From positions 14,190,501 through 14,254,500 of the forward strand of contig OX637399.1 of NCBI GenBank assembly GCA_951799425.1: a stretch of DNA of 64,000 bases. The letters run 5' to 3'. Positions within the stretch are counted from its first letter, which is position 1. Each line of letters starts with the position of its first letter. The stretch is from Ilex aquifolium (lineage: Eukaryota; Streptophyta; Magnoliopsida; Aquifoliales; Aquifoliaceae). Below, one piece after another: positions 7,417 through 40,360 of the stretch. Made by a program: the position numbers and the translations under genes. The notes under the pieces are model-generated. The model was given only the letters and a program-made list of their open reading frames with translations, was not told the DNA's origin and did no database searches.

Positions 7417-7845
7417 GAAGGTCGATCAAAACCTTCCGGAAGGCTTTGCTTACTGTTGGGCACCACTGTCTAGTAAGGAAAACCTTCCGAAAGGTATTAC
7501 CTTTGCTGCAAAACCATTCATTTGCTCCAAAACTCACATCCACTCCAACTTTCCTCAATTCCAAAACATTTTAACATCCTAACTATGAAATCTAACCTAT
7601 CAAAAACTTGAACTACACATATGAACCACAATTGATTGATCATGCCTAAAGTCTTTTTCGAAATTGCAACATGATTTAAGATTTTGACGTTTTTAAAGTA
7701 CAAGACATGAATTTCTAATTTACACTACCAAAATGAATACCCAAAATGTAACACATAGATTCAAAAGCAAGGGCATTCCTAAATCATATCGAATATCGAA
7801 AGTTGAGTCATATTCCCCTATCCTTTAAGCATAGGGCTATGAAAC
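7417..7845. repeat. F-like palindrome remnant and unresolved internal DNA
   Basis: 7430-7495 holds two AACCTTCCGGAAGG-type palindromes, as in the F U3 array in minus orientation. The rest (7500-7845) is AT-rich with no coding potential that I can support. It could be the U3 and 3' internal end of the old element E0, because E0-like internal sequence resumes at 10120 after the solo LTR. That assignment is uncertain. Confidence 0.35.
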
Positions 7846-10119
7846 TGTAACGCCCCAAATACCACCCTGGACGGCATTACATTCTAAAACCATTTATACC
7901 ATGAGAGCAACTAATAAAAATCCATAAATAACCGGGGGTCCTTAATTTAACGAAATTTGGGCATAGTCTCTTTTGTTCGGGGAGCTCCACCCAAAACACC
8001 ACCTGTGCAATTATACTACATTGACCACACCGGGTCCATTGATTCATAAAAAAAATACTTACAACATTATCCAAAAGAATATGCCAAACAATGGCATCTA
8101 CATCCCAAAAGAATTAAATTACATTTGGCAGCGGAAACCTAAAAATAATGTTAGACTTTACATTGCCTCAAAAGGAACTTCCTAGTTTATCACAAAAGAA
8201 AATAGAACACTAAGCGTCTCCCTCGGGATCTACGTTCCCTTCTATGGGAGCTTCCCAATGTCCCGGCTCATCAGTTCTGAGCTCCTCCTCTAGACAAAGA
8301 CCTGAAATATGTTGTTTGTAGGGGGTGAGCACTAAGCTCTGTAGCAACATTCCTCCCAAATTCGAACAAGGTTTATAAAAGTATATAAAATGGTCGGTCT
8401 CATTTCACAAATAACATATATAACATTTGAAGTAAAACGAGGACATTTAAACAGATCTCAAGTTTAGATAGCAACAGTAATTGAAATTGATAAATAAACA
8501 CAATATACCATTGGTAATCCATTCTACCATAAACCGTTTCCAACAAGTTCTCGCGGAATCTCATACTTCCCGAAACTCTTGTCGAAACCATTTTTGGTAC
8601 AATGCACGATAACTCACACTGAATGTCCGACACAACCCACGTTACTAATCCGTGATCATTAGTGATAGGAAAAGTTCATATCCACACGGCGTATAAAGGC
8701 GTCTACCCACTCCATGTGGTAGGAAAAGTTCATACCCGCGTGGCATACAAAGACGTCTACCCACTACATGATACCCGGTCAATAGTAATCCATGTTCGTA
8801 TCATACAACCACGCAAGAGATAAAATACCAACAAATATCTCACATAACCAACAATACCATAAACCCCCAATTTTTCAAGCAAATTCCATAAAATCCACAA
8901 ATCCATCATGAGACAATTTCAAATAAACAATGAAGAAAAATACAAGAGATCATGCACAATAGCATTTCAATACTCGACACAAAGCACTATAGTTTTCAAA
9001 GCCAAATTTGAGTGAAGATAGAGAGAGAAATCCATGTTTCTCACAGACTAAGGTTTTTATGGCTCTCTACCCATAACTTTTCTCAAAACATAATAAAGTT
9101 TGCAATAATACCAAGAGACAAGGAACCCATAGCAAATAGATATGATTAGAAGTCGAAATCATACATATATAATAACCCTAGCCTCAATGTAAGTGAATGG
9201 AAGGAAACCTCTACCTTTTTAATCCAAAGCTCCAAGCAAGACCCAAGCTTTAAGGACTCCCTTAGTCCCTTTTCTTGCTCCCTTGTTACTTTCTCCTAGG
9301 GTTCTAAGAGTTTTGAGTGAGAGTGAAGTGAAAGTATAGAAGAGAGAATGGGTGGAGAAGTGGGTTCTTGAAAAACTAGGGTTTGATTTTCTTGGAAGTG
9401 TAAAACCCTCTTGATCTTGTGTTTTTCTCCTCTTAGGGTTCTAAAGTGTTTAGGATGAGAGTGGAGTGAGGAATGGGGCAAATGAGGGCTTGAGGTGGTG
9501 TTTTAAACCCAAAAATCTCGACTTTTTAACTGTTCGGCGAGTGTCAGAGAAAGCGTACCGGTACCGCGTACCGGTACGGTTATGCTACTGGAGTTGGGCG
9601 TACCGGTACGGTTTGACTGACAGATTTTTGCTCCGACTTCCAGTGCAGTTTTGACCCATTTAGAGGTCGAATTGGAAAATTTTCATGATATACACTTTTG
9701 TAGCCCTAGATGTCTACCATCTACTGTCCAAATTTCAGATCCATTGGAGATCATAATAAAAAGTTATGACCTAAATACTAGAAGGTGTCCCAACTCCTTT
9801 TTACCCAAATTCTCTCTAAGTGTGTTTTCACTCCGGAATACTTCCTAACTTCCAATACACCGCATATTACCTCTCCCAATGTTTTTCGAACTTCCGGATC
9901 CAATGGAGAACTTATTTTGACCTAAATTCATTTAGAAACTTACATAATCCCTCTTCTCAAGCTTACACACCTTCGAAACTTAAACGTTACAATCCATTTG
10001 TCTCCCAAGTATTTATTCCTACTATTACAATCTATTTAGTTTATTCTTACATCATTGCTTATATTAGAATTACTAGAAAATTATATTACTAGATTAATCT
10101 AAACATGTGGGGGTTTACA
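7846..10119 (-). repeat. Solo LTR G1, target duplication GAAAC
   Basis: This 2274-bp solo LTR starts TGTAACGCCCC and ends GGGTTTACA on the plus strand, flanked by GAAAC at 7841-7845 and 10120-10124. It shares blocks with the three other G solo LTRs: CACCCTGGACGGCATTACATTC, GGGGTGAGCACTAAGCTCTGTAG, and the block around CAATGCAGTTTTGACCC. It carries one double and one single CGTACCGGTACG palindrome (9554-9578, 9599-9610). Orientation follows that of G2 and G4, whose TATA boxes lie on the minus strand. Confidence 0.9.
9554..9610. repeat. Palindrome array in G1
   Basis: Two CGTACCGGTACG units are joined with one extra C (9554-9578). A single unit follows at 9599-9610, 45 bp after the first. The spacer contains CTACTGGAG, like the spacers of G2, G4 and E. 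Confidence 0.9.
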
Positions 10120-10286: not shown

Positions 10287-12342
10287 TGCTTCAACTTTAA
10301 TATTGTAAACCCAAGCGCAGGTTGAGCGAAGTAATATATTTCTCGAAAGACCGATGTTGAACCCTTAGGGAATTGTGAAATAGCAGCAATCACACAAATA
10401 CTATAACAAACTTGTGAAGACAATTTATTTAAAAGATTGTTGAGTTGAGAATATTGATTGAAGTAATTAAAACAGTATAACAAAATACTAGAGTATCAGG
10501 TACTCCCTCTCAATTCCATACAATAATGATTAAAGACTTAAATCATAATTTTAGACAAGAATCAAATGTCGGTTGATTCAAGTCACCGAATTAAGCAAGA
10601 AAATCACAATTTATAATCAAAGGACTATTCAGGAACTTGAATAATCATCAAATTATATTATTCTATGAAATAATTGTAACGCCCCAAATACCACCCTGGA
10701 CGGCATTACATTCTAAAACATTCACATCATGAGAGCACTAATATCATCCATCAATAAATTAAACTTCATTCATCATTCATAAAATATTTACATCATTATC
10801 CAAAAGAATATGCCCAACCATGACATTTACATCTCAAAAATTTAACTATTATAGCGCAGCAGAATTACAAAAGGAAACTAGACTATACAATGTTTGTACA
10901 TGCTGGTTCCTAGTCTAGTACAAAAGTAAAAGGCATCTCTAAATGTCCCACTCGGGATCCAGGTACCCCTCTAATGAGGCTTCCCCGAGGCCCTGCTCAT
11001 TAGCGCCAAGCTCCTCCTCTATAGCATAATCTGAAAAATGTTAATTGTAGGGGATGAGCACGAAGCTCTGTAGCAAAATCTTCCCAAACTCAAACAAGGT
11101 TTAGGAAAGCATATAAAACGGTTGGTCTAATTTTCACAAATAGCATATATAACATTTTGAAGGAAAAGCAGGACATTTTAAATAGATCTCAAGTTTAAGG
11201 AATCACGGTAATTAAAAGAATAAATAAACACAAGATACCAATAAGAATCAATTCCCAAAACATAATCCATCCCACCATACACCATTTCCACAAGTTCTTG
11301 TGGCATCCCATACTACCCCAAAACTCTTGCAGAAATCGTATTTGGTACAATGAACGATAACTCACACTTGAACATTTCCGGCAATATATGTACATGTATC
11401 TCAACAATGATGTAAGGCATCCACATGAATCGACACATTGAGTAACGTCTTGCCCACACCCACACACACATCTTATCAAAAATATCCAACCTTTAGGAAG
11501 GGCGTGTACCATACCAATGGCAGTGACGAAATCCAACCCAGGCATTAGTATACTAACCCTCTTACACGGCACCACGTGAGCGATAGTGGTTTAGTCTTAC
11601 CAAAGCACTAATCCCACTACGAATGGATTAGTCTTACCAAAGCACTAACCCATTCTACGACATCTCGTCAAAGGACACCCATGGTCATCCCACACCCATT
11701 AGAGATACGACATCAAACCAATTTACCCAATTTATAAGCATATCTCAAAAATCCCCAAATTGAGCATTTGACATTTTCAATAACCAACCAAGAAAAATGC
11801 AAGAGATCACAACAATATCATTGTATTACTCAACACAAAACACTATGATTTTGAAATCAAGAATAAAGGAAAAGTTCAAGAGGAAAACCCATCACTCTTG
11901 AAAACTAGGGTTTTTCAAATCAAAAGAGGGATTTGTGTAAAACATGTTAACAATTGAACAAGAATCAAGAAACAATGGAGCCATAGCAAATAAATATCAT
12001 TAAGAATCAAAACATACATATTTATTAACCCTAACATCAATGTAAGAGAAAGAGAAGAAATCCCCTACCTCAACCAAGTATCTCTAGCAACCCAAGCTTT
12101 AAAGACTCCCTTTTCCCCTTTTTCTTGCTCCCTTGCTATTTTCTCTTTTGGTTCTAAGAGGTTTGAGTGAGGGTGAAGTGAAATTATAGAAGAGGGAATG
12201 GATGGAGAAGTGAAATCTTGAAAACTAGGGCTTTGATCTTGTAAATCTCTCCCAATTTTTGTGTTTTTCTCTCCCTCTTTTGCTCTCTAAGGGTGCTTAG
12301 GGTTTGGATGGGTGAAATGAGGCTCAAATAGTCGGCCTTAAG

Positions 12343-12350
12343 TATTTATA
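12343..12350 (-). promoter_or_regulatory. Putative TATA box of G2
   Basis: The minus strand reads TATAAATA after CCAC. The homologous box in G4 is 37319-37326, and a weaker form in G3 is 16034-16039. In all three, the nearest palindrome base lies 53 positions from the last plus-strand base of the box, so the palindromes are just upstream of the promoter on the element strand. Confidence 0.55.
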
Positions 12351-12402
12351 GTGGAAGAAATGGAGAAAGACCCGCATTCGGATCGGGCTGGTTTCTATCG
12401 GG

Positions 12403-12514
12403 CGTACCGGTACGCGTACCGGTACGGTTGAGCTTCTGGAGTCCAGCGTACCGGTACGCGTACCGGTACGATCTAGCTTCTGGAGTTCAGCGTACCGGTA
12501 CGCGTACCGGTACG
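12403..12514. repeat. Three 24-bp palindromes with 44-bp period (G2)
   Basis: Each unit is CGTACCGGTACG twice in tandem, which is itself a perfect 24-bp palindrome. Units lie at 12403-12426, 12447-12470 and 12491-12514. The two 20-bp spacers are similar to each other, both with AGCTTCTGGAGT, and unlike the palindromes. Confidence 0.95.
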
Positions 12515-13971
12515 ATTTGACTTCCAGATTTTTGTTTCAACTTCCAATGCAGTTTTGACCCATTTAGAGGTCGAATTGGAAAATTTTCATGAGACATACT
12601 TTTGTAGCCCTAGATGTCTACTATCTACTGTAAAAATTTCAGATCAATTGGACTTAAGGATAAAAATTTATGGCCAAAACACTAAGTAGTGTTCAATACC
12701 CATTTTTACCCAAATTCTCGCTAAAGTGTATTTTAACTCCGAGACACTTCCTAACTTCCAATACATCCATATTACCACTCCCAATGTTTTTCGACCTTCT
12801 GGATTCAATGGAATCATTATTTTGACCTTCAAACTTTTAGAAACTTGTCTAATCACCCTTTCCAAGTTTAGACATCTTCGACACGTAACTTCCCAATAAA
12901 ATTGTCTCCATAGCATTTATTCCTACGGTTTATTCTTATGTCACTACATATATCTACATCTTTACAAATATTATTTACTATATATATATTTCTATAAATA
13001 TATAAAAGAAAATTCGGGGTGTTACAATAATGATAATCAACTTAAGCGTGGAATAACCAGTTATTTACTCGCAGGGAAATTCAAGCAATCAATGTACATG
13101 ACACAATGACTCAAGGATTTTTACAGAGCAAAAACTTTGCTAATAAATCAAAAGCTGAATTAACATAATATCTCATATCATTAAGCTCAATAACATTACC
13201 GTACTTCATTGAGAGGTCCTCCCATAGCTCTAGCTTAACCCTCTAGCCAGACATGATAAACTAAAACCAAAAATAATATATGAAAAGAATAATAATACTA
13301 ATCCTAATTCTAATTATTTACCTCAATAGATGAGAGCCTTTTTTTACACCAAAATAAATCTTAAGTACAGGTAGAAGATATAAGGTGGTTTGGGAGAAAT
13401 TCTTTTCCAAACATAAGTCTTTTAAAGTTAAATCCCGTGTATAAAATCTTGGGGCCCGCAGGTACACAATCTGTCCAGATTTCGATCTTGAATTTCACAT
13501 ATTTAGAGGCTGAATCACGAAATGTTCGTGAAATACACTTTTGTAGCCCTTGAAGTCTTCTTTCCAGCCCTACAAAAATAAGGTTAATAGGATATCAGAA
13601 TCAAAAGTTATGGCCAAAATACTGAAAATGTGTCAAATCCTTATCTTCTAGAAAACTTTCCTAATCCAACTTTAAATGAGTTTTCTTCTAACTTGAACTC
13701 TTATAAGGATTAAATTGCTGCTTTATCTTCAAATCTTCCTATCTCAACCTTGACTCTTCAGTCCTTATCAGTTATGATTCTTCCTCTAGTGATTGTTTCT
13801 CTTGCATTATTCATTATTACTTTAAATCAATCAATTTACTTGCAAAATAAACCAAACAACTGGAAAAAGTATCAAACTAGAAAATCAAGCAATTTAACAC
13901 ATTTAATCACAAATAATATGCAATTAACCAATCATTAAATATAATAAAATAGCAATTTTTATGGTTAATCA

Positions 13972-14108: not shown

Positions 14109-16733
14109 TGTAGCACCCCAAAACACACCCTGGACGGCATTACATTATAAAACCATTCATATCATGAGAGCACTAAAATAAACCTTTCATAAGTAAGACT
14201 TCATAAAAATCATTCATAACACTTACATCATTATCCCAAATGAATATGCCATCTTTGGCCTTTACATTTCAAAAATCAACTAATGTAGCGCAGCGGAAAT
14301 AACAAAAGAAAACTAGACTTCACAAGGTTCAAAATGAATACCCTAGTCTAGAACAAAAGTAAGCTACATCTCTAGATGTCCCACTCGGGATCCAAGTATT
14401 CCTCTAGTGAAGCCTCTCCATGGCCCGGCTCATTAGCACCGAGCTCCTCCTCTAGCACCAAATCTGAAAAAGGTTCAACTGTAGGGGGTGAGCACGAAGC
14501 TCTGTAGAAAAATCCTCCCAAACCCAAACAAGGTTTAGAAAAGTATATAAAACGGTAGGTTTCATTTCACAATTAACATATATAATTTTTGAAGTAAAAC
14601 CAGGACATTTAAATAGATCTCAAGTTTAAGGAACATTAGTAATTGAATGATTAAGTAGAACCACTATACAGTTAACAAACCATATCCGAATATAATCCAA
14701 TCCACCATACACTGTTTCCACAAGTTCTCGCGGAATCCCATACTTCTCCAAGACTCTTGTAGAAACCGTCTATGGTAGAATGAACAATGACCATTTCCAA
14801 CTTTAAGTCATTTAGGAAGGGCGCCTTCCAATGCATTGTCCCATACCAATACATCGGCCAAGACGATCCAACCCATCATCCCATGTATATTGGTTCATCC
14901 CCGTACCATGTATGTTGATTGCTTCTCATGAATCCACCCAACGATTATACCTAGTCCACCAATTACAATCACAATCACAAGCACTTTAGGAAAGGGCATC
15001 TACCATCTCACTGGCAGTGACGAGTCCCTTCCCAGGAAAAGTATATCATCCCTTGTTCGAACTCCAGTGAACGATAGTGGTCGCATTACCACATGACAAC
15101 CCACTACAAGTGTTAGGAAACCATCACCCCCACTGGGATAGACTAACCTCTAACACTCTACGGCATCTCTCGAAGGCAATCCAAGTCCCACAACAACCAT
15201 ACAAATGAGGAAACCAAAATATTCTCAAAAACCTCCAATTTTCTCAGGTAGTTGTACAAAGAGCAATATAAGAAAATGTACAAGAGATCATCCTAAATAC
15301 CATTTTTGTTGTTCAATCTGAAACACTAAAGTTTTGAAATCAAGCACCTATAAGTAATCAAACTTTGGAATCATTACAAATGAATATTAAGCTTGGAGTA
15401 TAAAGAATAAAGGCGCACCAAGCTTGAACATCACGGACAAAGGAGGAATTAAGATTTAACGGAACAATTATGTATGGCAATAAATAACAAAGGACTATCA
15501 AGGTGTGAAATCAAGAACAAATGATTATGAAGCTTAGAGAACAAGACCAAAAGAAAACTCAAGTCTTGGAACCAAGGATAAAGAATATCAAGTATTGAAT
15601 ATCAAGCTTAGAAGTCAAAAGAAAGGAACAATCATATATTGAAATCAATAACAAAGGAGAAGTCAAGAGAAAAACACATCTCCCTTGAAGACTAGGGTTT
15701 GGCAAGAATCAAGGAGATTCAAGGGTTACCCAACAATCACAATATTTTCCACATGGCATCAATTGCAAGAATAGCAAGAATTAAGGATTGGATAGCATAC
15801 ATATAACATTTAGAGTGAAAAGATACATATAAATAAACCTAGCCTCAATGTAAGAGAATGGAAGAAAACCCCTACCTTTCTTCTTCCTAGGTGTTCTTGA
15901 AAACTTGAAGTTTTGATCTTCTTCAAAGTGCAAATCCTCCCTTGATCTTGTGTTTCCCCCTTTATCTCTTGTTTCTCAAAGCTTTCTAGGGTTGTAAATG
16001 GTGTATGGAGGCTAAAGGAGGCGTCCTTATGTCTTTATAGGGTGAAAATTGGCCTCTTGTGCACGATTCTGCAACCCAGAGTTCGTAAGTCACGTTCGAA
16101 CGTCATTGGCGTTCGAACGTTCGTCACTCCCAGTACTTTTGTTTTTCCATCAGACAAAGAGTACTGGAACGCACTTACATTCGAACGTTATTCACGTTCG
16201 AACGTCGATTCACGTTCGAACGTCATTTCACGTTCGAACGGAATTCCTGTTTTTGCTGAAACTTCCAATGCAATTTTGGCCTATTTAGAGATTGATTTGG
16301 AAATGTTTCATGAGATATAATTTTGTAGCCCTAGATGTCTATTATCTACTGTCCAAATTTCAGATCAATTGGATATAAGGATAAAAAGTTATGACCAAAT
16401 ACTAGAAGGTGTCCCAACTCATTTTTACCCAAATTCTCTCTAAGTGTGTCTTTACTCCAAAATACATCCTAACTTCCAATACACCTCATATTACCTCTCC
16501 CAAGGTTGTTCGACCTTCCGGATTCAATGGAGAACTTATTTTGACCTAACAATATTTAGAAACTTCCATCATCCCTCTTCTCAAGTTTACACATTCGAAA
16601 CTTAACTTCCCAATCAATTTGTATCTCTAGTTTTTGTTTTTATTCCTACCATCACTCCACATATCTACATTTTTACAACAATCATTTACTATATATCTAT
16701 ATACATATATAAAAGAAAATGTGGGGTGTTACA
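14109..16733 (-). repeat. Solo LTR G3, target duplication GCAAC
   Basis: This 2625-bp LTR starts TGTAGCACCCC and ends GGGGTGTTACA, between perfect GCAAC copies (14104-14108, 16734-16738). The empty site is visible in E3 at about 33360-33375. It matches the other G LTRs along most of its length and has an extra AAG-rich segment at about 15340-15690. The palindrome slot carries CGTTCGAACG instead of CGTACCGGTACG. Confidence 0.92.
16092..16240. repeat. CGTTCGAACG palindrome array in G3
   Basis: Six copies of the palindrome CGTTCGAACG (four extended to ACGTTCGAACGT or nearly so) lie at about 16092, 16110, 16179, 16194, 16212 and 16230. The one near 16180 has a changed first base. The flanks on the far side (ACTTCCAATGCA block, then CCTATTTAGAG) are those that flank the CGTACCGGTACG arrays in G1, G2 and G4. 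Confidence 0.93.
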
Positions 16734-20113: not shown

Positions 20114-20520
20114 AAAACTTGATTCAACTTTAATATTGTAAACTCAAGCACAGGTTGAGCGAAGTAATACATTTGTCACAAGGCCGAGGTCGAACCCTTA
20201 GGGAATTGTGAAATAGCAGCAATCACACAAATACTATAACAAACTTGTGAAGACAATTTATTTAAAATATTGTTGAGTTGAGAATATTGATTGAAGTAAT
20301 TAAAACAATATAACAAAATACTAGAGCATCAGGTACTCCCTCTCAATTCCATACAATAATGATTAAAGACTTAAATCATAATTTTAGACAAGAATCAAAT
20401 GTCGGTTGATTCAAGTCACCGAATTAAGCAAGAAAATCACAATTTATAATCAAAGGACTATTCAGGAACCTGAATAATCATCAAATTATATTATTCTATG
20501 AAATAATGATAATCAACTTA

Positions 20521-22994
20521 TGTGACGCCCCATTTTCCGGGGTCCTGTATTAACCGTTGACAACCCATCAACCCGCGGAAATACCCGTGGATGTCGCTTA
20601 ACCCGACACCACATCGATAACATCCTTAAACCGAGGTTATAAATCCAAAATGAAAATTCGGTTCAGCATTCATTCGATCCAACCCCAGTCCAACTCCCCA
20701 TGATTCATACCCCATTAGGGTCCAATTTGATCATTGGAGGGAAGGAAAAACATAGCCCAAAGGCTTGGCAAAGAAAACAAAAATAAAAAAAAAATTCTGA
20801 GTTTTGATGGGCGTACCGGTACGCGTACCGGTACACTGAACCCACTGGACATCTGCGTACCGGTACGCGTACCGGTACGCTCTGCCTTCTGTCTGTCTAC
20901 GTACCGGTACGCATACCGGTACGATTTTGCCAGTTTTGCCTTTTTCCTTTGTTTTTCACTTCCAATCCATTCTAATACATTCCTAACTCATCCAACACAT
21001 GTATAATACGATTTTTCATATAATACACAACTTATACAAGTTCCATTACATTTAATTCCATAATTTACACATCAAAATGGAATTTATACAAAAGTTTTTA
21101 CAAAACTCTAACTAAGGCCACAAGCCGGCCCCCTTCATTCTTGATGCTCTCCAAGTGAGCCATCCGCCGGTGCAAACCCCACACCTGAAATGTTTCCCGT
21201 ATAGGGTGAGCCAACGCCCAGTAAAGTAAACCCTACCAGGGCTACTCTTCCCCTAGATGCTCATGCTCATGCAACATTCATTTACAAACAATCATTTATC
21301 GAAAGGACATGCATTCTAAGTTGGAATGCAACATACCATGCCATGAAATGAGATGTCACTCACTCATGCATTTTAACCCGAGTTCTCACCGACTCATACA
21401 ACACGATGCAATGCCAAAGTGTTTCATTTCATCATTTATGTTTACATCAAATGATATTTTGAAAACTAGGGTCTTTCTTGGGATCGGACTTCTTTATGGA
21501 CTTAACCAATGGTCTTCCACACCCGTACACTTTATGGGCTCTTATACCAACGGAGTGCACCCCCCAAACACCGGGTCTTTCACCCGAGAGGTCGTCATGC
21601 CTCTTCTTGCTCATCCCGACCCAATTTATCATGAAATCAAGTGGCTTAGCTAGGTCTTCGACCCAACTTTTTCCCAAGCCATATTGTCAATCCCCAAGTG
21701 TGGTATTGACATCAACCAGGCACACACACCCATCTAATGAGATGCATATGCAATGCCATGTTCCATTGCATACAACATAATGCTCAATATGCTCATGACA
21801 AACATATAAACATTTCCAATACATCAATGGCAATTATATCAAAAGCACATAACTACCATATCTCATTATGTTCAATATATCATTTCATGCATATATCAAC
21901 AACACTCATTATCCAACAACCATATCCTAAGCATATGATTTCACAATCACCCAAGCATGTTATAACATAGCATCATGCAAATAACACACACAATTTCACC
22001 TAGGCATTTTATCAAACACCTAGTATTCATTAAAGTCATGTTTTCACATAACACATTCCAAGCAACCATATAGCTCAAATGTCACCAAGTTATAAGAGAA
22101 ACCACATGGAACTCCTATGTAATAACATCAAGCTAGAAGTTAGCCTAGGCCAACTCTATGCTCCCTTTTCCATTACCATAACTATAGACATATATATATT
22201 TCAATACATATGCATATATAACTTTTAACCCTTAGTCTACTAACACCTAAGGTAAAAATAGTCCCAAGTAGGAGAAACCCTACCTCTTGAAGCGTAATTC
22301 TCTCGAAGGAAGCTTCAAGAACACTTTCCAAGCCCAAGTCTAGATTTCCCCCAAATCTCCTCTCTTGGATCTTCGGTGAAATCCCTTGCTCTTGGTGTGG
22401 TTGCGTAGCCCTCGTCGATGTGATCGACTTTAGCTCTTGGTTCGACGGAATCCGAGCGACGGAACTCCGGGAATCGACGGAGGAAGCTTGAAGATCAAGG
22501 TTTTCTCTCTTTTCTCTCTTCTCTCTTCTCTCTCTCTTGGCCGGCCAAACAAGAACACAAGGGGCAAAATAATCTGATTTTCTAGATATTTACCCCTATT
22601 TATAGTTTTAAATACTCGGCCTACGTCGTGCCACGTGTCCCTCGCTTAATCGGGTTCGATTTCGTCCCGAAACGATTTATTTGGTCCCGGTTTAAGTTCA
22701 AATTAATTTTATTTAAACTTAAACTTAATTTTAAGGAAATTTTATAAAACTCATTTATGGGGACGTTCGTGAGGTCATTCGCCACGCAGTCGCCTCGAAC
22801 GACGTGCAAAATCTGACTATCTCAGAATTCGACGAAATTTGACAAGGTGACTCGTTTTCGCGATACGAATTCAACAGCGAACTCTGTTTCCTCATCCGAG
22901 GTCTAAAACATGAGTATTTTAAATACGCATTATAATGGCAAATTACTATTTTGCCCTTTAAAAAAAAAAAAATCCAAATTTCCCGGGTTTTACA
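20521..22994 (-). repeat. E 3' LTR
   Basis: 2474 bp with termini TGTGACGCCCC and GGGTTTTACA on the plus strand. The first base pair group differs from the 5' LTR (TGTGAC against TGTAAC). It has a palindrome array at 20812-20923 and a TATA box on the minus strand at 22596-22605. Frames of about 100 codons inside it also occur at the same place in the 5' LTR and are not supported as genes. Confidence 0.95.
20812..20923. repeat. Three 24-bp palindromes with 44-bp period (E 3' LTR)
   Basis: Doubled CGTACCGGTACG units start at 20812, 20856 and 20900. The first ends in A instead of G and the third has one internal change. The first spacer has CTGGA at bases 10-14, the same offset as in the G family. 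Confidence 0.95.
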
Positions 22995-23007
22995 TTCTTC
23001 CCCCCTT
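22995..23007 (-). other. Polypurine tract of E
   Basis: The minus strand reads AAGGGGGGAAGAA directly before the 3' LTR. It is identical to the tract at 3566-3578. Confidence 0.9.
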
Positions 23008-23087
23008 AAAAAGAATTTCGTCCCCGAAATTCACGTACACATACATGCAATCTCATGCATATGCTACAGTCATGTAATGGTAAATGA

Positions 23088-26000
23088 CTATAAAAACGTA
23101 CCTCTATCCTCAAACAAGAAAGGATAATTGGCACGTACGGTGTCCTCGCGCTCCCATGTTGCCTCTTCCACTCCCCGGTGCTGCCACAGCACCTTCACTA
23201 GCCTCACAGTCTTGCCTCGTAAAACCTGATCCCGGCTATCCATGATACGCACCGGTCCCTCCTCGAAGGTCCCATCTGCATCAACAACAAGCTCGCCCCA
23301 ATCCACCACATGAGTCGGATCTGGAGTATACTTCCGGAGCATAGAGACATGAAACACCGCGTGAACACCCGATAAATTTGGCGGCAACGCCAACCGATAA
23401 GCAACTGTACCCACCCTCTCGAGTACCTCGAAGGGCCCGATGTATCTCGGCGACAGTTTTTCCCGCTTACCAAACCGGACCACTCCTCTTTTAGGCATAA
23501 CCTTCAAGAAGACATGATCTCTCACCTCAAACTCTAGAGGTCGCCGTCGTCTATCGGCGTAGCTCTTCTGCCGGCTCTGAGCCGTGAGAAGACGCTTCCG
23601 TATCAAGTCCACCTTCTCTGAGGTGTCTCTAACTAAATCCGGACCCGTAGCAGGTCTCTCCCCAACCTCTGTCCAACAAACTGGAGATCGACATGGCCTC
23701 CCATATAGTGCCTCGTAGGGTGCCATCTGTATGCTCGCCTGATAACTATTGTTATAGGCGAACTCCACCAAGGGTAAGTGATCTTCCCAGCTACCCTTGA
23801 GATCTAGGACACATGCCCGCAACATGTCCTCTAATGTCTGGATAGTCCTCTCCGACTGACCATCCGTCTGGGGATGAAAAGCAGTGCTCATCATCAACTG
23901 AGTCCCCATGGCTCGCTGGAAACTCTCCCAAAAATGAGATGTGAATCTGGGATCCCGATCCGATACTATAGATACGGGCACCCCATGCAATCGGACAATC
24001 TCACGTATATATAACTTGCAGAATTCCTCCAATGTGAAGGTCATCCGCACAGCCAAAAAGTGTGCCGACTTGGTAAGCCGGTCCACTATCACCCATACCG
24101 CATCATGTCCCCGCGATGTCCGTGGCAAATGAGTCACAAAATCCATCGTGACATGCTCCCACTTCCACTCAGCTACCCCCAAAGGCTGGAGCAATCCCGC
24201 TGGTCTCTGGTGTTCAGCCTTCACTTGCTGACATGTGAGACATCTACCAACAAATTCACCAACTTGTCCCTTCATCCCACTCCAATAATACTGACGACGA
24301 AGATCATGATACATCTTCGTGCCCCCTGGATGAACCGCAAAACGAGAACAATGAAATTCCCTAAGAATCTCCTCCCTTAGATCCGGAGATTGGGGAACCA
24401 CAATCCTTCCCCTATACCGAAGACTACCATCCGAATGAATGGCCCAGCCCTCGTCACCTGTACCCGACCGTACCCGGTCCTTAATGGACGCTATCTCTAG
24501 GTCTTGCCCTTGAGACTCAATCACTCTGCTCAGTAGGGAAGGCGTAGCCACCAAACTTCCCAAGGTACCCTGAGCCTGCCCCATGTAATGTAGCCCAAAC
24601 TGTCCCACAGTCTCGAGCATTTCCCACTCTCGGGAAGCTACACTAGCCAAGACTCCCCGTGACTTCCGGCTAAGTGCATCAGCCACCACATTTGCCTTAC
24701 CGGGGTGGTAATGCAAAGTGAAGTCATAGTCTTCCAGAAACTCCATCCACCTGCGTTGCCTCATGTTGAGGTCCCGCTGTGTAAAGATGTACTTCAGACT
24801 CTTGTGGTCCGAAAACACTTCAAACTGCTCACCGTATAGGTAGTGGCGCCAAGCCTTCAAGGCAAAGACAATGGCCGCCAACTCCATGTCGTGTGTAGGG
24901 TAATTCTGCTCGTGGTTCTTTAACTGTCGAGAACCATAAGCCACGACCCTCCTGGACTGCATCAACACACATCCGAGCCCGTCCTTAGAGGCATCACAAT
25001 AGACTGTGTACCTCTGTCCCCTTTCTGGGACTATCAATATAGGAGCTGAAGTAAGCCTCCTCTTCAACTCCTGGAATGCATTCTCGCAAGAATCATTCCA
25101 CTCGAACTTGACCTCCTTCCGAGTCAACTTCGTCATAGGCGCAGCTAACCTAGAGAAGTCCTCGATAAACCGCCGATAATACCCAGCCAATCCCAAGAAA
25201 CTACGTATCTCAAAAACTGACTTCGACCTCTCCCAATTCATGACTGACTCAACCTTCTCCGGGTCTACGGATACACCCGAAGCCGACACCACATGTCCCA
25301 AAAATTTCACCTCAGTAAGCCAAAATTCACACTTGCTGAACTTGGCATACAACTGATGGTCTCTCAAGATCTGAAGAACGACCCTCAAGTGACCCTCATG
25401 CTCCTCCTCAGACCTGGAGTAGATCAAAATGTTGTCAACGAAAACCACGACGAATTGATCAAGGTAGGGTTGGAACACCCTATGCATGAGATTCATGAAT
25501 GCCGCTGGGGCGTTCGTCAATCCGAAAGGCATGACAGTGAACTCGAAATGCCCATATCGCGTTCGAAACGCCGTCTTAGGGATATCTGTCTCCCTAACTC
25601 TCAACTGATGGTAACCGGTGCGGAGATCTATCTTGGAGTAGACCCGCGCCCCTCTCAGCTGATCAAACAAGTCATTAATCCTCGGCAAAGGGTACCTATT
25701 CTTGATAGTAACCCTATTCAACTGCCGGTAGTCTATACATAGTCGAAGGGTTTTGTCCTTCTTCTTTGCAAATAACACCGGAGCGCCCCAAGGTGAGGTA
25801 CTCGGTCTAATGAAACCCCGGTCCAACAATTCCTGCAATTGGACCTTGAGTTCTTGCAACTCAGCAGGCGCCATCCTATGTGGAGTCATAGAAATGGGTG
25901 ATGTACCAGGATGCAACTCTATATTAAAATCTACATCCCTATGTGGAGGTAATCCCGGAAGTTCACCCGGAAAAACATCCTCATAATCACACACAACCCG

Positions 26001-27710
26001 AGGCAGACCAAACTCCTGTCTCGCCTCGTCCTCCAGGGTAAGGCTTGCTAGCCAACCCATCAACTGTCCGTGCCATCTAGAGTCGTACACGGCTTGAGGT
26101 AAAGCATCGTGCTTATCCCCCTGAAACCTGAAACAAACCCCATCCGATGTGTAAGCAGTAACCCGCTTCCGGTCACAATCAATGACGACTCGGTGTGCCG
26201 CCAACCAATCCATTCCCAGGATTACATCGAACTCCGACATGTCCATGACCCGAAGGTCCACAGTGAGTAGAATCCCTGAGATCTCTAGCTCACAACCCCG
26301 ACATATCTGATCAATTCTCACCCTAGCACCTAGGGGAGAACTCACATGTAATGGTTCTTCTAAAGTCTCAACCTCTAAACCCAAGTCTTTCACACAAGAT
26401 GCAGAAATGAATGAATGCGATGCACCAGAGTTAAATAATACTCTTGCCCATAAACGAGAGAGTAGAAATGTACCCTGTATCACCGACTGATCTGCCGGCT
26501 CAGTCTGTGGCATAATGGCGTAGACACGCCCCTGGGTCCCTGAAGTCCCGGCCTGTGAACCCTGGCCTCGCCCTCTACCCATGCCTTGGCCCATCTGGCC
26601 AGCTTGCGGTGTTCCCGCTCGGAAAGTAGTAGGGCCTTGTGCAGCACCCTGTGATTGGTACTGGCTCCTTTGACCCATGGAGGGGTAAGGAGGAACAAAC
26701 TGTGTCTGCGGCTGTCCCACAGAAGACTGGGATTGAGATGTCCCATAGCTCTGGGATCCCTGCAGTCGAGGACACTCCTTCTTTATGTGACCCGGCTGGT
26801 GACAAAAATAACAAGTCTTCTGACCCGTCTGGAAGGCGGTCCTGAAGTTTCCCCCGTCTTGGAAGAATCGACCCCGGCCTTGGCCTTGATAGCCGCGGCT
26901 CCGCCCTTGAACTCCCTGCGGAACATAAGTCCTTTGTTTCTTTCCCGCACTAGAAGAAGAGGATTGACCCTCCTTCTTTTTGTCCTTAACACCCGCTTCT
27001 CGGATGTTGCGCGCATCCTCCACCTCTCTCTCGATAGCCATTGCAGTCTTGACCATCGAATCGAGGTCTTGCAGGAGAAGTCCCACAATCTTGCCTCGAA
27101 TGGACAACTTCAGTCCATCTTCGAACTTACGTACCTTGGCCACGTCTGAGGCCACATAGTCATCAGCAAAACGGGCCAACTCCGTGAATTTGGCCACGTA
27201 TTCTAGCACATTCATATTTCCCTGCTTCAATTCTAGGAACTCCTTGGCCTTAGCATGTCGAGCAGTTGCTGGGAAATATTTTCCCATATAGAGCTCTCGG
27301 AACTCTGCCCAAGTCATGGCCTCCAAATTTCTGGAGTCCTTCACCCAATCCCACCATAGCTGGGACTCTCCCTCCAGCTGAAAAGTTGCCAGAGTTATCT
27401 TGGTGGCATCGGAAGTGATCTCCATAGCCCTCAAGATCTTCTCCACTTGCCGAATCCAACGATCTGCTACCATTGGATCCGCACCTCCCAGAAAAACCAG
27501 AGGATGATGGGCTTTGAACTTCTGGAGGTTACTCGAGCCTCCTTGTCCCATGTTTGCACCCGTCTGTGCAATGGTAGCGGCTGTAGCACTAGCCTGTGCA
27601 ATAGTCGCCGCCGCCTCACCAATAGCCTCTGCAAAGGCTTGGTGATCAAAGGCCGGAGGTGGTTGGTTATTCCACCTACCGCCTCGGCGTCCACGCCCTC
27701 TATATGCCAT
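23088..27710 (-). CDS. gag-pol: Tekay gag-pol polyprotein, 1540 aa, open but active sites altered
   Basis: One uninterrupted minus-strand frame encodes all retrotransposition proteins. In order: gag (capsid about residues 65-185), zinc knuckle [14 protein letters not shown] (300-313), aspartic protease with [11 protein letters not shown], reverse transcriptase (about 640-800), RNase H (CDAS, DMELA, SDHKS, VADALS), integrase (HHCC zinc finger; [24 protein letters not shown] carrying the D, D and E), and a C-terminal chromodomain ([10 protein letters not shown]) that targets insertion to heterochromatin. The length is normal for Tekay. Two key residues are changed: the protease Asp is Asn427, and the second Asp of the RT catalytic pair is Asn760 (VDNILIYS). 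Both fit single G-to-A changes. The element therefore looks intact but is probably unable to mature proteins or copy RNA by itself. The ATG at 27710 is the first in frame after the leader. Confidence 0.95.
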
Positions 27711-28139: not shown

Positions 28140-28432
28140 AGCTGTAACGCCCCATTTTCCGGGGTCCTGTATTAACCGTTGACAACCCATCAACCCGCGG
28201 AAATACCCGTGGATGTCGCTTAACCAGACACCACATCGATAACATCCTTAAACCGAGGTTATAAATCCAAAATGAAAATTCGGTTCAGCATTCATTCGAT
28301 CCAACCCTAGTCCAACTCCCCATGATTCATACCCCATTAGGGTCCAATTTGATCATTGGAGGGAAGGAAAAACATAGCCCAAAGGCTTGGCAAAGAAAAC
28401 AAAAATAAAAAAAAAATTCTGAGTTTTGATGG

Positions 28433-28544
28433 CGTACCGGTACGCGTACCGGTACACTGAACCCACTGGACATCTGCGTACCGGTACGCGTACCGGTACG
28501 CTCTGCCTTCTGTCTGTCTACGTACCGGTACGCATACCGGTACG
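28433..28544. repeat. Three 24-bp palindromes with 44-bp period (E 5' LTR)
   Basis: Doubled CGTACCGGTACG units start at 28433, 28477 and 28521, matching the copies in the 3' LTR. Confidence 0.95.
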
Positions 28545-30209
28545 ATTTTGCCAGTTTTGTCTTTTTCCTTTGTTTTTCACTTCCAATCCATTCTAATACA
28601 TTCCTAACTCATCCAACACATGTATAATACGATTTTTCATATAATACACAACTTATACAAGTTCCATTACATTTAATTCCATAATTTACACATCAAAATG
28701 GAATTTATACAAAAGTTTTTACAAAACTCTAACTAAGGCCACAAGCCGGCCCCCTTCATTCTTGATGCTCTCCAAGTGAGCCATCCGCCGGTGCAAACCC
28801 CACACCTGAAATGTTTCCCGTATAGGGTGAGCCAACGCCCAGTAAAGTAAACCCTACCAGGGCTACTCTTCCCCTAGATGCTCATGCTCATGCAACATTC
28901 ATTTACAAACAATCATTTATCGAAAGGACATGCATTCTAAGTTGGAATGCAACATACCATGCCATGAAATGAGATGTCACTCACTCATGCATTTTAACCC
29001 GAGTTCTCACCGACTCATACAACACGATGCAATGCCAAAGTGTTTCATTTCATCATTTATGTTTACATCAAATGATATTTTGAAAACTAGGGTCTTTCTT
29101 GGGATCGGACTTCTTTATGGACTTAACCAATGGTCTTCCACACCCGTACACTTTATGGGCTCTTATACCAACGGAGTGCACCCCCCAAACACCGGGTCTT
29201 TCACCCGAGAGGTCGTCATGCCTCTTCTTGCTCATCCCGACCCAATTTATCATGAAATCAAGTGGCTTAGCTAGGTCTTCGACCCAACTTTTTCCCAAGC
29301 CATATTGTCAATCCCCAAGTGTGGTATTGACATCAACCAGGCACACACACCCATGTAATGAGATGCATATGCAATGCCATGTTCCATTGCATACAACATA
29401 ATGCTCAATATGCTCATGACAAACATATAAACATTTCCAATACATCAATGGCAATTATATCAAAAGCACATAACTACCATATCTCATTATGTTCAATATA
29501 TCATTTCATGCATATATCAACAACACTCATTATCCAACAACCATATCCTAAGCATATGATTTCACAATCACCCAAGCATGTTATAACATAGCATCATGCA
29601 AATAACACACACAATTTCACCTAGGCATTTTATCAAACACCTAGTATTCATTAAAGTCATGTTTTCACATAACACATTCCAAGCAACCATATAGCTCAAA
29701 TGTCACCAAGTTATAAGAGAAACCACATGGAACTCCTATGTAATAACATCAAGCTAGAAGTTAGCCTAGGCCAACTCTATGCTCCCTTTTTCATTACCAT
29801 AACTATAGACATATATATATTTCAATACATATGCATATATAACTTTTAACCCTTAGTCTACTAACACCTAAGGTAAAAATAGTCCCAAGTAGGAGAAACC
29901 CTACCTCTTGAAGCGTAATTCTCTCGAAGGAAGCTTCAAGAACACTTTCCAAGCCCAAGTCTAGATTTCCCCCAAATCTCCTCTCTTGGATCTTCGGTGA
30001 AATCCCTTGCTCTTGGTGTGGTTGCGTAGCCCTCGTCGATGTGATCGACTTTAGCTCTTGGTTCGACGGAATCCGAGCGACGGAACTCCGGGAATCGACG
30101 GAGGAAGCTTGAAGATCAAGGTTTTCTCTCTTTTCTCTCTTCTCTCTCTCTTGGCCGGCCAAACAAGAACACAAGGGGCAAAATAATCTGATTTTCTAGA
30201 TATTTACCC

Positions 30210-30219
30210 CTATTTATAG
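30210..30219 (-). promoter_or_regulatory. Putative TATA box of E
   Basis: The minus strand reads CTATAAATAG, about 390 bp into the LTR. The same box is at 22596-22605 in the other LTR and 3969-3976 in the related Tekay LTR. Confidence 0.6.
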
Positions 30220-31590
30220 TTTTAAATACTCGGCCTACGTCGTGCCACGTGTCCCTCGCTTAATCGGGTTCGATTTCGTCCCGAAACAATTTATTTGGTC
30301 CCGGTTTAAGTTCAAATTAATTTTATTTAAACTTAAACTTAATTTTAAGGAAATTTTATAAAACTCATTTATGGGGACGTTCGTGAGGTCATTCGCCACG
30401 CAGTCGCCTCGAACGACGTGCAAAATCCGACTATCTCGGAATTCGATGAAATTTGACAAGGTGACTCGTTTTCGCGATACGAATTCAACAGCGAACTCTG
30501 TTTCCTCATCCGAGGTCTAAAACATGAGTATTTTAAATACGCATTATAGTGGCAAATTACTATTTTGCCCTTTAAAAAAAAAAATCCAAATTTCCCGGGT
30601 TTTACAACTTAAGCGTGGAATAACCAGTTATTTACTCGCAGGGAAATTCAAGCAATCAATGTACATGGCACAATGACTCAAGGATTTTTATAGAGCAAAA
30701 ACTTTGCTAATAAATCAAAAGCTGAATTAACATAATATCTCATATCATTAAGCTCAGAGTCAATAACATTACCGTATTTCATTGAGAGGTCCTCCCCTAG
30801 CTCTAGCTTAACCCTCTAACCAGACATGATAAACTAAAACCAAAAATAATATATGAAAAGAATAATAATGCTAATCCTAATTCTAATTATTTCTCTCAAT
30901 AGATGAGAGCTTTTTTTTATACTAAAATAAATCCTAGGTACAGGTAGAAGATATAAGGTTGGTTTGGGAGAAATTATTTTCCAAAAAGAAGTATTTTAAA
31001 GTTAAATCCCGTGCATAAAATCTGGGGGCCCGCAGGTACACAATTTGTCCAGACTTCGATCTTAAATTTCGCATATTTATAGGCTGAATCACGAAATTCT
31101 CGTGAAATACACTTTTGTAGCCATTGAAGTCTTCTTTCCAGCCCCACAAAAATCAGGTCAATAGGATATCAGAATCAGAAGTTATGACCAACATACTGAA
31201 GAGATGTCAAATCCTTATCTTCTAAGAAACTTTCTCAATCCAAGTTTAAATAAGTTTTCTTCTAACTTGAACTCTTATAAGGATTAAATTGCTACTTTAT
31301 CTTCAAATCTTCCTATCTCAACATTGACTCTTCAGTACTTATCAGTTATGATTCTTCCTCTAGTGATTGCTTCTCTTGCATTATTCATTATTACTTTAAA
31401 TCAACCAATTTACTTGCAAAATAAACCAAACAACTAGAAAAAGTATCAAACTAGAAAATTAAGCAATTTAACACATTTAATCACAAATAATATGCAATTA
31501 ACCAATCATTAAATATAATAAAATAGCAATTTTTATGGTTAATCAGCAATCCAAATTAAGGTTCGATGCAACCTCACCAAGGGTGTCTCT

Positions 31591-33261
31591 TGATTGATTG
31601 GAAAACGTTGTTGTATCCTAACCTCTAAACATCACCCTCACCCTCAATGTGTGTATGTGGCTTATAGTGATGGGGGAGTGTCACTCTCCCTCCGGATAAT
31701 GCAAGAGATATAGGAGCAACAACAAATGTGAATGGAAATGTGGAATGAACAAAATGTATGGAATGAAATGTGGAATGGAATGCGTGTGAACAAAAGTACT
31801 CCCCAATCGTAAGGAGTCTCTTGTTGTCGGTGTTTTACTTGGAAAAATATTCCAAGGTCGTCTCCTCAGGGAAGGAAAGGGAGTTTTGTGAAAGTGATTT
31901 TGCAAAAAGAGAAAAGAAAGTGTAAAATCTTGTATTTGTGTTTTGTTGAGTTTTGTTCAAAATGAAAATGCAAGAAAGCAAGTGTTGGCTAATCCAAGAG
32001 GTTCATTCCAATGGGAATATCAAGCCAACTCAAAGCCTTCCTCCAATGGTGCCTAGAAGTACGATTGATTCATGGGAAGCTAGGGATAAAATGGTGAGTA
32101 TCTAAGCATAAACCGTGACTAGGCCTACGGAATATCAAAGGCTCACCAACTCATCCACTCTCAACCCCGTCAAACCGAACCATTTGACTCTAAAGGGAGG
32201 AATGAAGAAGAGTTGAAAATGGTATTCCCAAGAGGAATTTTCCTTTGGATTAACCAACTTAAATCCTAGCTACTCATATTAAAAATGCATAAAGGAAAGA
32301 CAAGCATAATGTAAATGAAAGACATTGTATAGAAATGAAGCTTTAAAGCATGAAACTAAACTTGAAGCAAGAAATCTAAAGCTATGAACAAAAACATTCA
32401 ATACCCATTTTAAGCTAAAAATGAAGAACTTGAAAGCATAAATGGTGAAATGAAGAACATGTAATTAACTTGCAATATACTTGAAATAAAGGAGATTACA
32501 ATGTAAGAAATGAAGATTACAAGAGGAATGTAGCTTACAGCAATGACATGGATGAAGAAAATGCAAAAACGAAATTACTTTACACTATTCATCTTCTTCC
32601 TCAATGGAGCAAAAACTAAGCTTAGGTAGCCAACCCAATACCAGCTTGTAATGTTGAATATAATGGTGTGTGGGAGACTTCCAATTTCGTGCATGAGGCT
32701 CCCCCTTAGCTGTGTGCAGACCTCCCATCATAGGGGGCTGGTGATGGCTTGGACAGGGCATGGCAGGGCACTCCTCAAGACCCAGCAGCTCAACTTCTCA
32801 CTCCTCTCATTAATGCTCTCTTGCAATCAATAGTCCAAAAGAGGTGTGAACACAATGAATAGTGTTGTGGGCTTGCAGGAGGCAGGCGGGAGAAGACATG
32901 GTGGGGGCCACAAAAATCGGCTGAGACAAGTTCGCAGAATTTGGACAAAATTCCTTCGGGCGTACCGGTACGCGTACCGGTACGCAGCACGCCAGTAGGG
33001 TCATCGTACCGGTACGCTAGCCTTTTTTTCCTGAATTTCTTCCTGTCCTCCCCTGTTGAGCTTGCCTTTGGTTTTCCTTCACCCTTATTCATCTTGACGT
33101 ATTTGAGAAGCCTCAAGATGGTTATGTTGCACACTTTTACCCTGCAATCATCAAATGCTAAATTGAGAAATTATGAAGTAAAACTCCATCTTTTAATTAT
33201 AAAAACCATTCAATTAACATTGATTTGCACATGTGAATCATACAATATATTGTGCTAATCA
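31591..33261 (-). repeat. E3 3' LTR
   Basis: 1671 bp, TGATTGATTGG to TTGTGCTAATCA. It is nearly identical to 38678-40360 apart from about ten substitutions noticed by eye and a 12-bp length difference in the palindrome array (32961-33016). It belongs to the F family by shared blocks with 1-942, 43390-45159 and 52813-54667. Confidence 0.95.
32961..33016. repeat. Palindrome array of the E3 3' LTR
   Basis: A doubled CGTACCGGTACG lies at 32961-32984 and a single unit at 33005-33016, starts 44 bp apart. The other LTR has a doubled second unit. Confidence 0.95.
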
Positions 33262-37378: not shown

Positions 37379-37446
37379 CGTACCGGTACGCGTACCGGTA
37401 CGATCCAGCTTCTGGAGTTCTGCGTACCGGTACGCGTACCGGTACG
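37379..37446. repeat. Two 24-bp palindromes with 44-bp period (G4)
   Basis: Doubled CGTACCGGTACG units start at 37379 and 37423. The 20-bp spacer contains AGCTTCTGGAGTTC, as in G2. Confidence 0.95.
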
Positions 37447-38677: not shown

Positions 38678-40360
38678 TGATTGATTGGAAAACGTTGTTG
38701 TATCCTAACCTCTAAACATCACCCTCACCCTCAATGTGTGTATGTGGCTTATAGTGATGGGGGAGTGTCACTCTCCCTCCGGATAATGCAAGAGATATAG
38801 GAGCAACAACAAATGTGAATGGAAATGTGGAATGAACAAAATGTATGGAATGAAATGTGGAATGGAATGCGTGTGAACAAAAGTGCTCCTCAATCATAAG
38901 GAGTCTCTTGTTGTCGGTGTTTTACTTGGAAAAGTATTCCAAGGTCGTCTCCTCAGGGAAGGAAAGGGAGTTTTGTGAAAGTGATTTTGCAAAAAGAGAA
39001 AAGAAAGTGTAAAATCTTGTATTTGTGTTTTGTTGAGTTTTGTTCAAAATGAAAATGCAAGAAAGCAAGTGTTGGCTAATCCAAGAGATTCATTCCAATG
39101 GGAATATCAAGCCAACTCAAAGCCTTCCTCCAATGGTGCCTAGAAGTACGATTGATTCATGGGAAGCTAGGGATAAAATGGTGAGTATCTAAGCATAAAC
39201 CGTGACTAGGCCTACGGAATATCAAAGGCTCACCAACTCATCCACTCTCAACCCCGTCAAACCGAACCATTTGACTCTAAAGGGAGGAATGAAGAAGAGT
39301 TGAAAATGGTATTCCCAAGAGGAATTTTCCTTTGGATTAACCAACTTAAATCCTAGCTACTCATATTAAAAATGCATAAAGGAAAGACAAGCATAATGTA
39401 AATGAAAGACATTGTATAGAAATGAAGCTTTAAAGCATGAAACTAAACTTGAAGCAAGAAATCTAAAGCTATGAACAAAAACATTCAATACCCATTTTAA
39501 GCTAAAAATGAAGAACTTGAAAGCATAAATGGTGAAATGAAGAACATGTAATTAACTTGCAATATACTTGAAATAAAGGAGATTACAATGTAAGAAATGA
39601 AGATTACAAGAGGAATGTAGCTTACAGCAATGACATGGATGAAGAAAATGCAAAAACGAAATTACTTTACACTATTCATCTTCTTCCTCAATGGAGCAAA
39701 AACTAAGCTTAGGTAGCCAACCCAATACCAGCTTGTAATGTTGAATATAATGGTGTGTGGGAGACTTCCAATTTCGTGCATGAGGCTCCCCCTTAGCTGT
39801 GTGCAGACCTCCCATCATAGGGGGCTGGTGATGGCTTGGACAGGGCATGGCAGGGCACTCCTCAAGACCCAGCAGCTCAACTTCTCACTCCTCTCATTAA
39901 TGCTCTCTTGCAATCAATAGTCCAAAAGAGGTGTGAACACAATGAATAGTGTTGTGGGCTTGCAGGAGGCAGGCGGGAGAAGACATGGTGGGGGCCACAA
40001 AAATCGGCTGAGACAAGTTCGCAGAATTTGGGCAAAATTCCTTCGGGCGTACCGGTATGCGTACCGGTACGCAGCACGCCAGTAGGGTCATCGTACCGGT
40101 ACGCGTACCGGTACGCTAGCCTTTTTTTCCTGAATTTCTTCCTGTCCTCCCCTGTTGAGCTTGCCTTTGGTTTTCCTTCACCCTTATTCATCTTGACGTA
40201 TTTGAGAAGCCTCAAGATGGTTATGTTGCGCACTTTTACCCTGCAATCATCAAATGCTAAATTGAGAAATTATGAAGTAAAACTCCATCTTTTAATTATA
40301 AAAACCATTCAATTAACATTGATTTGCACATGTGAATCATACAATATATTGTGCTAATCA
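38678..40360 (-). repeat. E3 5' LTR
   Basis: 1683 bp with the same termini as the 3' LTR. It is 12 bp longer because the second palindrome is doubled (40092-40115). Confidence 0.95.
40048..40115. repeat. Two 24-bp palindromes with 44-bp period (E3 5' LTR)
   Basis: Doubled units start at 40048 (one base changed, TATG for TACG) and 40092. The 20-bp spacer is unrelated to the G spacers. Confidence 0.95.

Follow-up and report, generated by a model that had tools for sequence, protein, structure and literature searches.

Palindromic repeated-motif (RM) boxes of Sireviruses are the closest known kind of element to the arrays described here. As reported by Bousios et al. 2010 (PMC2829016), many copies of a palindrome lie in one CpG-rich region of the LTR, with the TATA box on average 37 bp after the island. 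The same report gives these boxes a CGG-CCG core and a CpG island, counts at least 8 RM motifs per element, finds that the box sequence mostly differs from element to element, and calls the boxes Sirevirus-specific within the Ty1/copia set (PMC2829016). A first-pass annotation of the present DNA, whose author knew of no described element of this kind, is corrected by this account of palindromic boxes upstream of TATA (PMC2829016). In Del/Tekay elements, the absence of LTR CpG islands is described as predominant in the cluster that contained all eudicot copies of that study (PMC4029996). The targets of VANC proteins are described as short motifs in fast-turnover tandem repeats, located in non-coding parts and differing between related copies (PMC5735166; PMC10398659).

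The window analyzed here (64,000 bp; C9:14190501-14254500) lies in a genome of 800,232,872 bp in 103 contigs. The host is holly, with a GH17/X8 gene at 58729-59952 showing 99% identity over 90% of the length to an Ilex paraguariensis protein. Nested LTR elements occupy much of the window, including the following:

20521..22994, minus strand: 3′ LTR of element E (Tekay type; TSD ACTTA), forming an LTR pair with 28143-30606
28143..30606, minus strand: 5′ LTR of E, adjoined on the minus strand by the primer-binding-like TTGGTATCAGAGC
23088..27710, minus strand: gag-pol ORF of E, 1540 aa (gag, protease, RT, RNase H, integrase)
31591-33261, minus strand: 3′ LTR of element F, paired with the F 5′ LTR at 38678-40360
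38678-40360, minus strand: 5′ LTR of F (element TSD TCTCT), with the primer-binding site adjoining
7846-10119, minus strand: solo LTR G1 (TSD GAAAC)
10675..13026, minus strand: solo LTR G2 (TSD ATAAT)
14109-16733: solo LTR G3 (TSD GCAAC)
35739-37993, minus strand: solo LTR G4 (TSD ATAGC)
43390-45159: H43, an F-related solo LTR (TSD AGTAT)

E is a young element on the minus strand, with 12 substitutions over 2465 aligned bases between its LTRs (one of them an included boundary base), a Ty3/gypsy gag-pol in a single ORF (RT before integrase) and a 5-bp TSD. We take its lineage to be Tekay and its primer-binding site to be of the Met type. The LTRs of F differ at 9 of 1672 positions (one being a boundary base); its primer site is presumably of the Asp type and the element itself presumably Athila-like. 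F is fragmentary, and the Pfam search on its internal ORF pieces returned a CCHC zinc knuckle alone. It may also sit inside an older related element, with part of its interior (33716-34850) 86% identical to sequence outside the 5′ LTR (40361-41497). The minus orientation of the G LTRs was assigned from the TATA-like CTATAAATA in G2 and G4 and from the similarity between E and G. We also noted, at 10286-13971 and 20119-31545, that the G2 solo LTR and the full E element are inserted ~13 bp apart in two copies of a host repeat that are 94–96% identical. This placement may reflect an insertion hot spot or coincidence; non-random nesting has been reported (PMC6911290).

The first of three palindromes in these LTRs, type A, is the 12-mer CGTACCGGTACG. 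At ≤2 mismatches it has 34 matches in the window, compared to a mean of 0.27 and a maximum of 3 across 100 dinucleotide shuffles, and all 34 fall in LTRs (12 in E, 3 in G1, 6 in G2, 4 in G4, 7 in F, and 2 in an F-related LTR at 54.2 kb). Genome-wide, the exact 12-mer occurs at 14,692 sites versus 14 for a reversed-pattern control, a control that says nothing on the register of the box described below. The array coordinates first assigned in E (20812/20856/20900 and 28433/28477/28521) and F (32961/33005 and 40048/40092) are all right, as is the 44-bp period, which is composed of a 24-bp double palindrome and a 20-bp spacer. The A arrays of the window are:

20812..20923, minus strand: E 3′ LTR, three 24-bp double palindromes and two 20-bp spacers
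28433..28544, minus strand: E 5′ LTR, identical in layout to 20812-20923
12403..12514, minus strand: G2 solo LTR, ~52 bp upstream of the TATA-like CTATAAATA
9554..9610, minus strand: G1 solo LTR, a reduced array
37379..37446, minus strand: G4 solo LTR
32961..33016, minus strand: F 3′ LTR, one 12-mer fewer than in the F 5′ LTR
40048..40115, minus strand: F 5′ LTR
54184..54208, minus strand: F-related LTR, the variant AGTACCGGTACC/AGTACCGGTACT with a minus-strand box in register

A search for repeated imperfect palindromes (pairs within 120 bp) returned 110 pairs in the window versus 0–1 in 10 shuffles. Except for a tandem repeat at 4.4–4.7 kb and one pair at 38.3 kb, these correspond to the A arrays and to two further palindromes, types B and C. 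A second E-type LTR (~3.58–6.06 kb, plus strand) is without an A array and has a long 23/46/70-bp tandem array at 4344-4767.

Beyond the window, we analyzed 20 regions, each of 10 kb, that surround the A sites listed first (50 in all), a non-random sample that lies wholly on contig C1, was located by exact A sites, contains LTR pairs of single elements and includes one region (L030) that is 39% masked. These regions hold 22 arrays, and every one of the 69 gaps between neighbouring palindromes (12-mers with ≤2 mismatches, within 150 bp) measures 0, 1, 4, 19 or 20 bp, with 25 gaps of 20 bp and 4 of 19 bp. Overall, window included, arrays of 2 to 12 units were seen, plus one single unit. Using 300-bp flanks, all 22 sampled arrays cluster with the families of the window (11 E-type, 10 G-type and 1 F-type); three clusters were obtained with these flanks and side consistency, while 1,200-bp flanks placed all 30 arrays in one cluster, probably via neighbouring repeats. 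No array was found outside LTRs in the sampled regions (one contig). Since every one of the 34 window matches falls in an LTR and all 22 sampled arrays belong to three LTR families, a background satellite was rejected for the window and the sample. The proposal that the array is a discrete module common to otherwise unrelated LTRs is upheld by this distribution across the E, G and F families. Two findings had been named in advance as counting against a module exchanged between families or kept by convergent selection, namely a background tandem repeat and an LTR ancestor shared across the array region, and neither emerged in the window or in the sample from C1. The exact A 24-mer gave 0 matches in viral and prokaryote contig collections, and the E polyprotein gave no confirmed match against viral contigs.

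The spacers carry a second conserved component. Once oriented, the 20-bp spacers have in common a CTWCTGG box, with CTGG at offset 10–13. The F spacer had been reported to lack the CTGGA of the E and G spacers; this was due to reading it on the wrong strand, as the minus strand reads ATGACCCTACTGGCGTGCTG, with CTGG (without the following A) at offset 10–13. The idea of an unrelated F spacer was thereby rejected; 13 of its 20 positions agree with a spacer of E, and 13 of 20 with one of G (permutation p 0.0008 and 0.0013). Within E, CTGG is confined to the first spacer, the second having CTGT. The sampled loci played no part in defining the box and are homologous copies within three families (including LTR pairs of single elements); of their 29 spacers, 24 have CTGG at offset 10.

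Type B (CCTTCCGGAAGG) is found at 2.5, 7.4 and 43.6–43.8 kb of the window and type C (ACGTTCGAACGT) at 16.1–16.2 kb, in the following arrays:

43639..43846, plus strand: B array of CCTTCCGGAAGG and variants, in H43
2501..2684, minus strand: B array in H2, an LTR copy homologous to H43
7432..7494, no strand assigned: two B palindromes with the in-register box remnants CTGT and CTAG
16092..16240, minus strand: C array in G3, with neighbours 17–18 bp apart save for one 68-bp gap

The A and B palindromes agree at 8 of 12 positions and have the CCGG centre in common. A by-eye similarity that would have placed the 7.4-kb B array in an E-type LTR was unsupported (z 0.5).

The box keeps its phase with either of these palindromes. 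The window has just three exact copies of the sequence CTACTGGA, all of them in array spacers, one with type A (G1) and two with type B (H2 and H43). Of the 68 YWCTGG sites in the window, 11 are accompanied at a single register by a 12-mer that is symmetric in ≥5 of 6 pairs, where 0.56 were expected, and all 11 are in arrays, across 5 LTR lineages including the B-type H. The other 40 registers tried gave 0–2 each, save −6 and −12 (6 each), which represent the palindrome pair itself. In the sampled loci, 27 of 228 YWCTGG sites are at the register (23 A, 3 B and 1 other), compared to 0–9 at the other 24 registers tried. Genome-wide, B followed by YWCTGG within 0–20 nt has 6,355 matches, with 5,537 of them at a gap of 7, one register of 21. 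The equivalent search with A has 6,849 matches; the 100 at the head of the list divide into 64 with a gap of 7, 32 with 19–20 (behind the second palindrome of a pair) and 4 elsewhere. Similarity across lineages over the whole spacer is beyond chance (star test p 0.0005) and is weaker outside the box (p 0.0017, for spacers oriented beforehand by the box), while the best A-versus-B spacer pair is by itself not beyond shuffles (13 versus a mean of 11.5).

Differing palindromes occupy homologous LTR sites. In the Athila-like LTRs, the A array of F and the B array of H43 both begin 246–250 bp into the LTR. Among the G LTRs, G2 and G4 carry A and G3 carries C at the same LTR position (513–624 in G2, 494–642 in G3). 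The decisive case, on which the A/B replacement in E-type LTRs is based, comes from one sampled region (L018). Here a solo LTR of E type (5978-8598, TSD CCCAG) has inserted into an E-type element, and the LTRs of that element are 98.7% identical and carry A. At the A-array site, this solo LTR instead has a 12-unit B array (7968-8359), with 6 of its 11 spacings at 31–32 bp and with both flanks homologous to E (78–80% over ~500 bp; 3′ flank z 40). Taken with F and H43, this region places A and B each in both Tekay-type and Athila-like LTRs, interchanged as blocks at one site. In 12 more H-type copies (of 40 scored, from 2,089 candidates), B is present in 12 of 12 and A in 0 of 12; the box follows a B-like 12-mer in register in 10 of 12 (with CTGG or CTAG accepted) and does not in 2 of 12. 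The C array differs in its 17–18 bp spacing, and its box-like CCAGTAC is inverted and ~2 nt off register. Given that 32 and 44 bp are near whole helical turns and 17–18 bp are not, same-face helical phasing was rejected, by this arithmetic, as a general rule.

Further observations concern the C and B palindromes. Within the G3 array, an inverted repeat at 16130-16167 (CCAGTACTTTTGT / ACAAAGAGTACTGG) has CCAGTAC in either arm, at a distance of 17 bp from the centre of a C palindrome in both cases. Contig C1 has, close to its start (60646-192048), eleven copies of one B array pattern in 132 kb, with two boxes 168–169 bp apart and often paired 7.6–7.8 kb apart. A facing B pair ~222 bp apart (AACCTACTGG / AGCCCACTGG) was noted at seven places among the first 100 listed, including C1:560628-560874, a layout absent from the window.

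The arrays differ in their position relative to TATA-like sequences and in CpG content. It had been stated that the array is upstream of TATA in G and far downstream in E, and this holds in the sense of the element. All six TATA-like matches of the E LTR precede the array, and the best by eye (CTATAAATAGGGG, at ~391) is 1.7 kb upstream of it (~2072–2183). In G2, CTATAAATA follows the array at 513–624 of the LTR by ~52 bp, and likewise by ~52 bp in G4; the F LTR has no TATAWAW or TATATA match. Given the arrangement in E, a simple promoter-proximal enhancer misfits some families, and in E the module would need to act at a distance, or E-type LTRs would have an unseen second promoter. Three A arrays have 14–18 CpG per 100 bp, versus 2.1 in the window, and type A, with its CCGG centre, shows a CpG observed/expected ratio of 1.6–1.8 over 68–112 bp. 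The B array of H43 is CpG-poor (2.4 per 100 bp; observed/expected 0.54), and a high CpG content is thus no general property of the arrays. Inside A, CpG sites show C-to-T and G-to-A changes that fit methylation at some time.

Palindromes and spacers have diverged to different extents. In the E array, the palindromes are 94% identical versus 10 of 20 positions between the two spacers; the contrast is smaller in G2, where the palindromes are 100% identical and the spacers agree at 16 of 20. In the 20 sampled loci, 70 further 12-mers (beyond the one by which each array was found) are 93% identical to A, with an acceptance of ≤4 mismatches that favours high identity, and the flanks of nine E-type copies match E at 68–93%. 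The two F LTRs differ by one complete 12-mer, through gain or loss, indicating that the unit number changes quickly.

The sequences show the architecture, its genome-wide phase, the LTR families of the sample and the differing palindrome blocks at homologous sites; protein binding, activation and the identity of any factor are inferred. With moderate confidence, we read the array as a composite cis-regulatory LTR module with an exchangeable palindromic factor site. Each unit would comprise a 12-bp palindrome, often as a head-to-head pair, and a 20-bp spacer with the CTWCTGG box at fixed phase. The palindrome is proposed as the site of a dimeric host DNA-binding factor and the box as that of a second factor, fixed relative to the first; several units together may recruit transcription to the LTR or hold it open against silencing. 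The palindrome would be the exchangeable part, in that related LTRs carry an A, B or C block at the same site and the change between A and B keeps the box and its spacing. A phased pair of protein sites would look like this combination of a symmetric palindrome that can be replaced and a second box held at constant distance. Possible resemblances to NAC and CAMTA sites were left out of the argument. No single known factor among those considered fits A, B and C together, and SBP proteins suit A only, through its GTAC cores. SBP-box (SPL/CRR1) factors are described as using GTAC sites (PMC4158090). Each A 12-mer has two GTAC cores; the B and C palindromes are without GTAC, which leaves SBP proteins unable to account for all three types.

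An alternative that we regard as unlikely is an RNA hairpin signal, with the palindromes acting as stems after transcription, either for small-RNA silencing or for the element RNA (dimerisation or export). Strong stems are predicted in 5 of 5 arrays folded (z −6.5 to −8.9), but these follow trivially from palindromic symmetry, and several B variants break a pair with no compensation. The E array, downstream of its TATA-like matches, would be transcribed, while that of G is upstream of its TATA-like box and, if this box is used, outside the 5′ leader. Small RNAs are reported to be attracted by the palindrome clusters of maize Sireviruses (PMC10760457). A hairpin requires neither the 20-bp spacing nor a CTGG box kept in constant phase, ~17 bp away from the centre of the palindrome.

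Quite unlikely, in our estimation, is that the arrays are the target of an anti-silencing or other DNA-binding protein encoded by a transposable element, like VANC of Arabidopsis VANDAL. The change of palindromes in blocks matches the target pattern described for VANC (PMC5735166), and under this reading the sharing across families would imply one trans factor serving several. Nonetheless, the single long ORF found in E yields no domains other than those of gag-pol, G is present here as solo LTRs only and F is fragmentary, and the VANC21 motifs as described (YAGTATTAC/T; PMC5735166) are not palindromes with a phased second box.

We give less credence still to passive spread, in which a functionless mobile minisatellite or recombination hot spot among LTRs would be kept uniform via slippage and conversion. 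The number of units does vary, with a whole 12-mer differing between the F LTRs, and palindromes promote template switching, which would favour such spread. Homogenisation of units would nevertheless produce the opposite of what is seen in E, where the palindromes are near-identical and spacers of the same array drift to 50%. The phase of the box is also kept between A and B despite the changed palindrome, and the sampled arrays (one contig) are in three LTR families only.

The descent of the E, G and F LTRs from one ancestral LTR that retained the array is highly improbable, and already so for F: E and G both have TGTAA...TTACA-like termini and a weakly similar stretch, and may thus be distant relatives, but E/F and G/F are without significant homology outside the array, the primer-binding-like sites of E and F differ, and the array is at different LTR positions. 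The earlier judgement that these LTRs are unrelated stands for the E/F comparison (z −0.8) and for that of G with F, whose z of 2.6 does not exceed the range seen in 25 shuffles, and is qualified for E/G by the weak stretch, which is away from the arrays (z 4.8).

Returning to the composite module, we consider its spread by recombination between co-packaged or neighbouring elements the somewhat more probable route to its present distribution. An independent origin in each family is a weighty but less probable route; one protein geometry could impose the spacing and the box on independent arrays. Tentatively, we suggest a shared pool of "palindrome plus phased box" cassettes that have been moved or re-invented across the Tekay and Athila lineages, with palindromes exchanged block by block, as though elements remained active by turning from one to another of a few host factors, and with each cassette having a history of its own, apart from that of its host element.

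Little is understood of LTR promoters in plant retrotransposons, and the means by which young elements evade silencing are an open question. The holly genome offers a defined unit with ~20,000 natural palindrome sites (14,692 exact A, and 5,537 exact B accompanied by the box). Its palindromes, of which two and perhaps three are interchangeable, have a fixed phase and occur in sister LTRs that differ in the palindrome at one site. These provide a ready-made experimental design, and tests on such LTRs would show whether the evolution of a retrotransposon's control module is independent of that of the element itself.

Compared to known systems, a cross-family module of this kind was not described in the open-licence PubMed Central literature that we searched, and the motif strings likewise returned no paper there that concerns the motif by its title. 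As in the LTR CpG islands described for Del/Tekay (PMC4029996), variable-length CpG-rich segments are found at characteristic places in the LTR; these islands, as described there, are without palindromes, spacing or cross-family sharing. Like VANC targets, the holly motifs are in non-coding tandem repeats and are changed in blocks between related copies, but VANDALs are DNA transposons with an encoded VANC protein, and the domains in the long ORF of E are those of gag-pol alone. The likeness to RM boxes is that the holly palindromes are multicopy in one LTR region; CpG richness is seen in type A and not in the B array of H43, and a place ~52 bp upstream of a TATA-like box in G2 and G4 and not in E. 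Unlike the Ty1/copia hosts of RM boxes, E is of Ty3/gypsy type by the domains and order of its ORF (F and G being without pol here), and its array is far downstream of TATA. Identical holly palindromes also occur across unrelated LTR families, and the fixed 12 + 20 geometry and conserved non-palindromic box set them apart from RM boxes as these are described (PMC2829016). What is new relative to RM boxes is the cross-family identity, the fixed spacer, the conserved box and the Ty3/gypsy-type host E.
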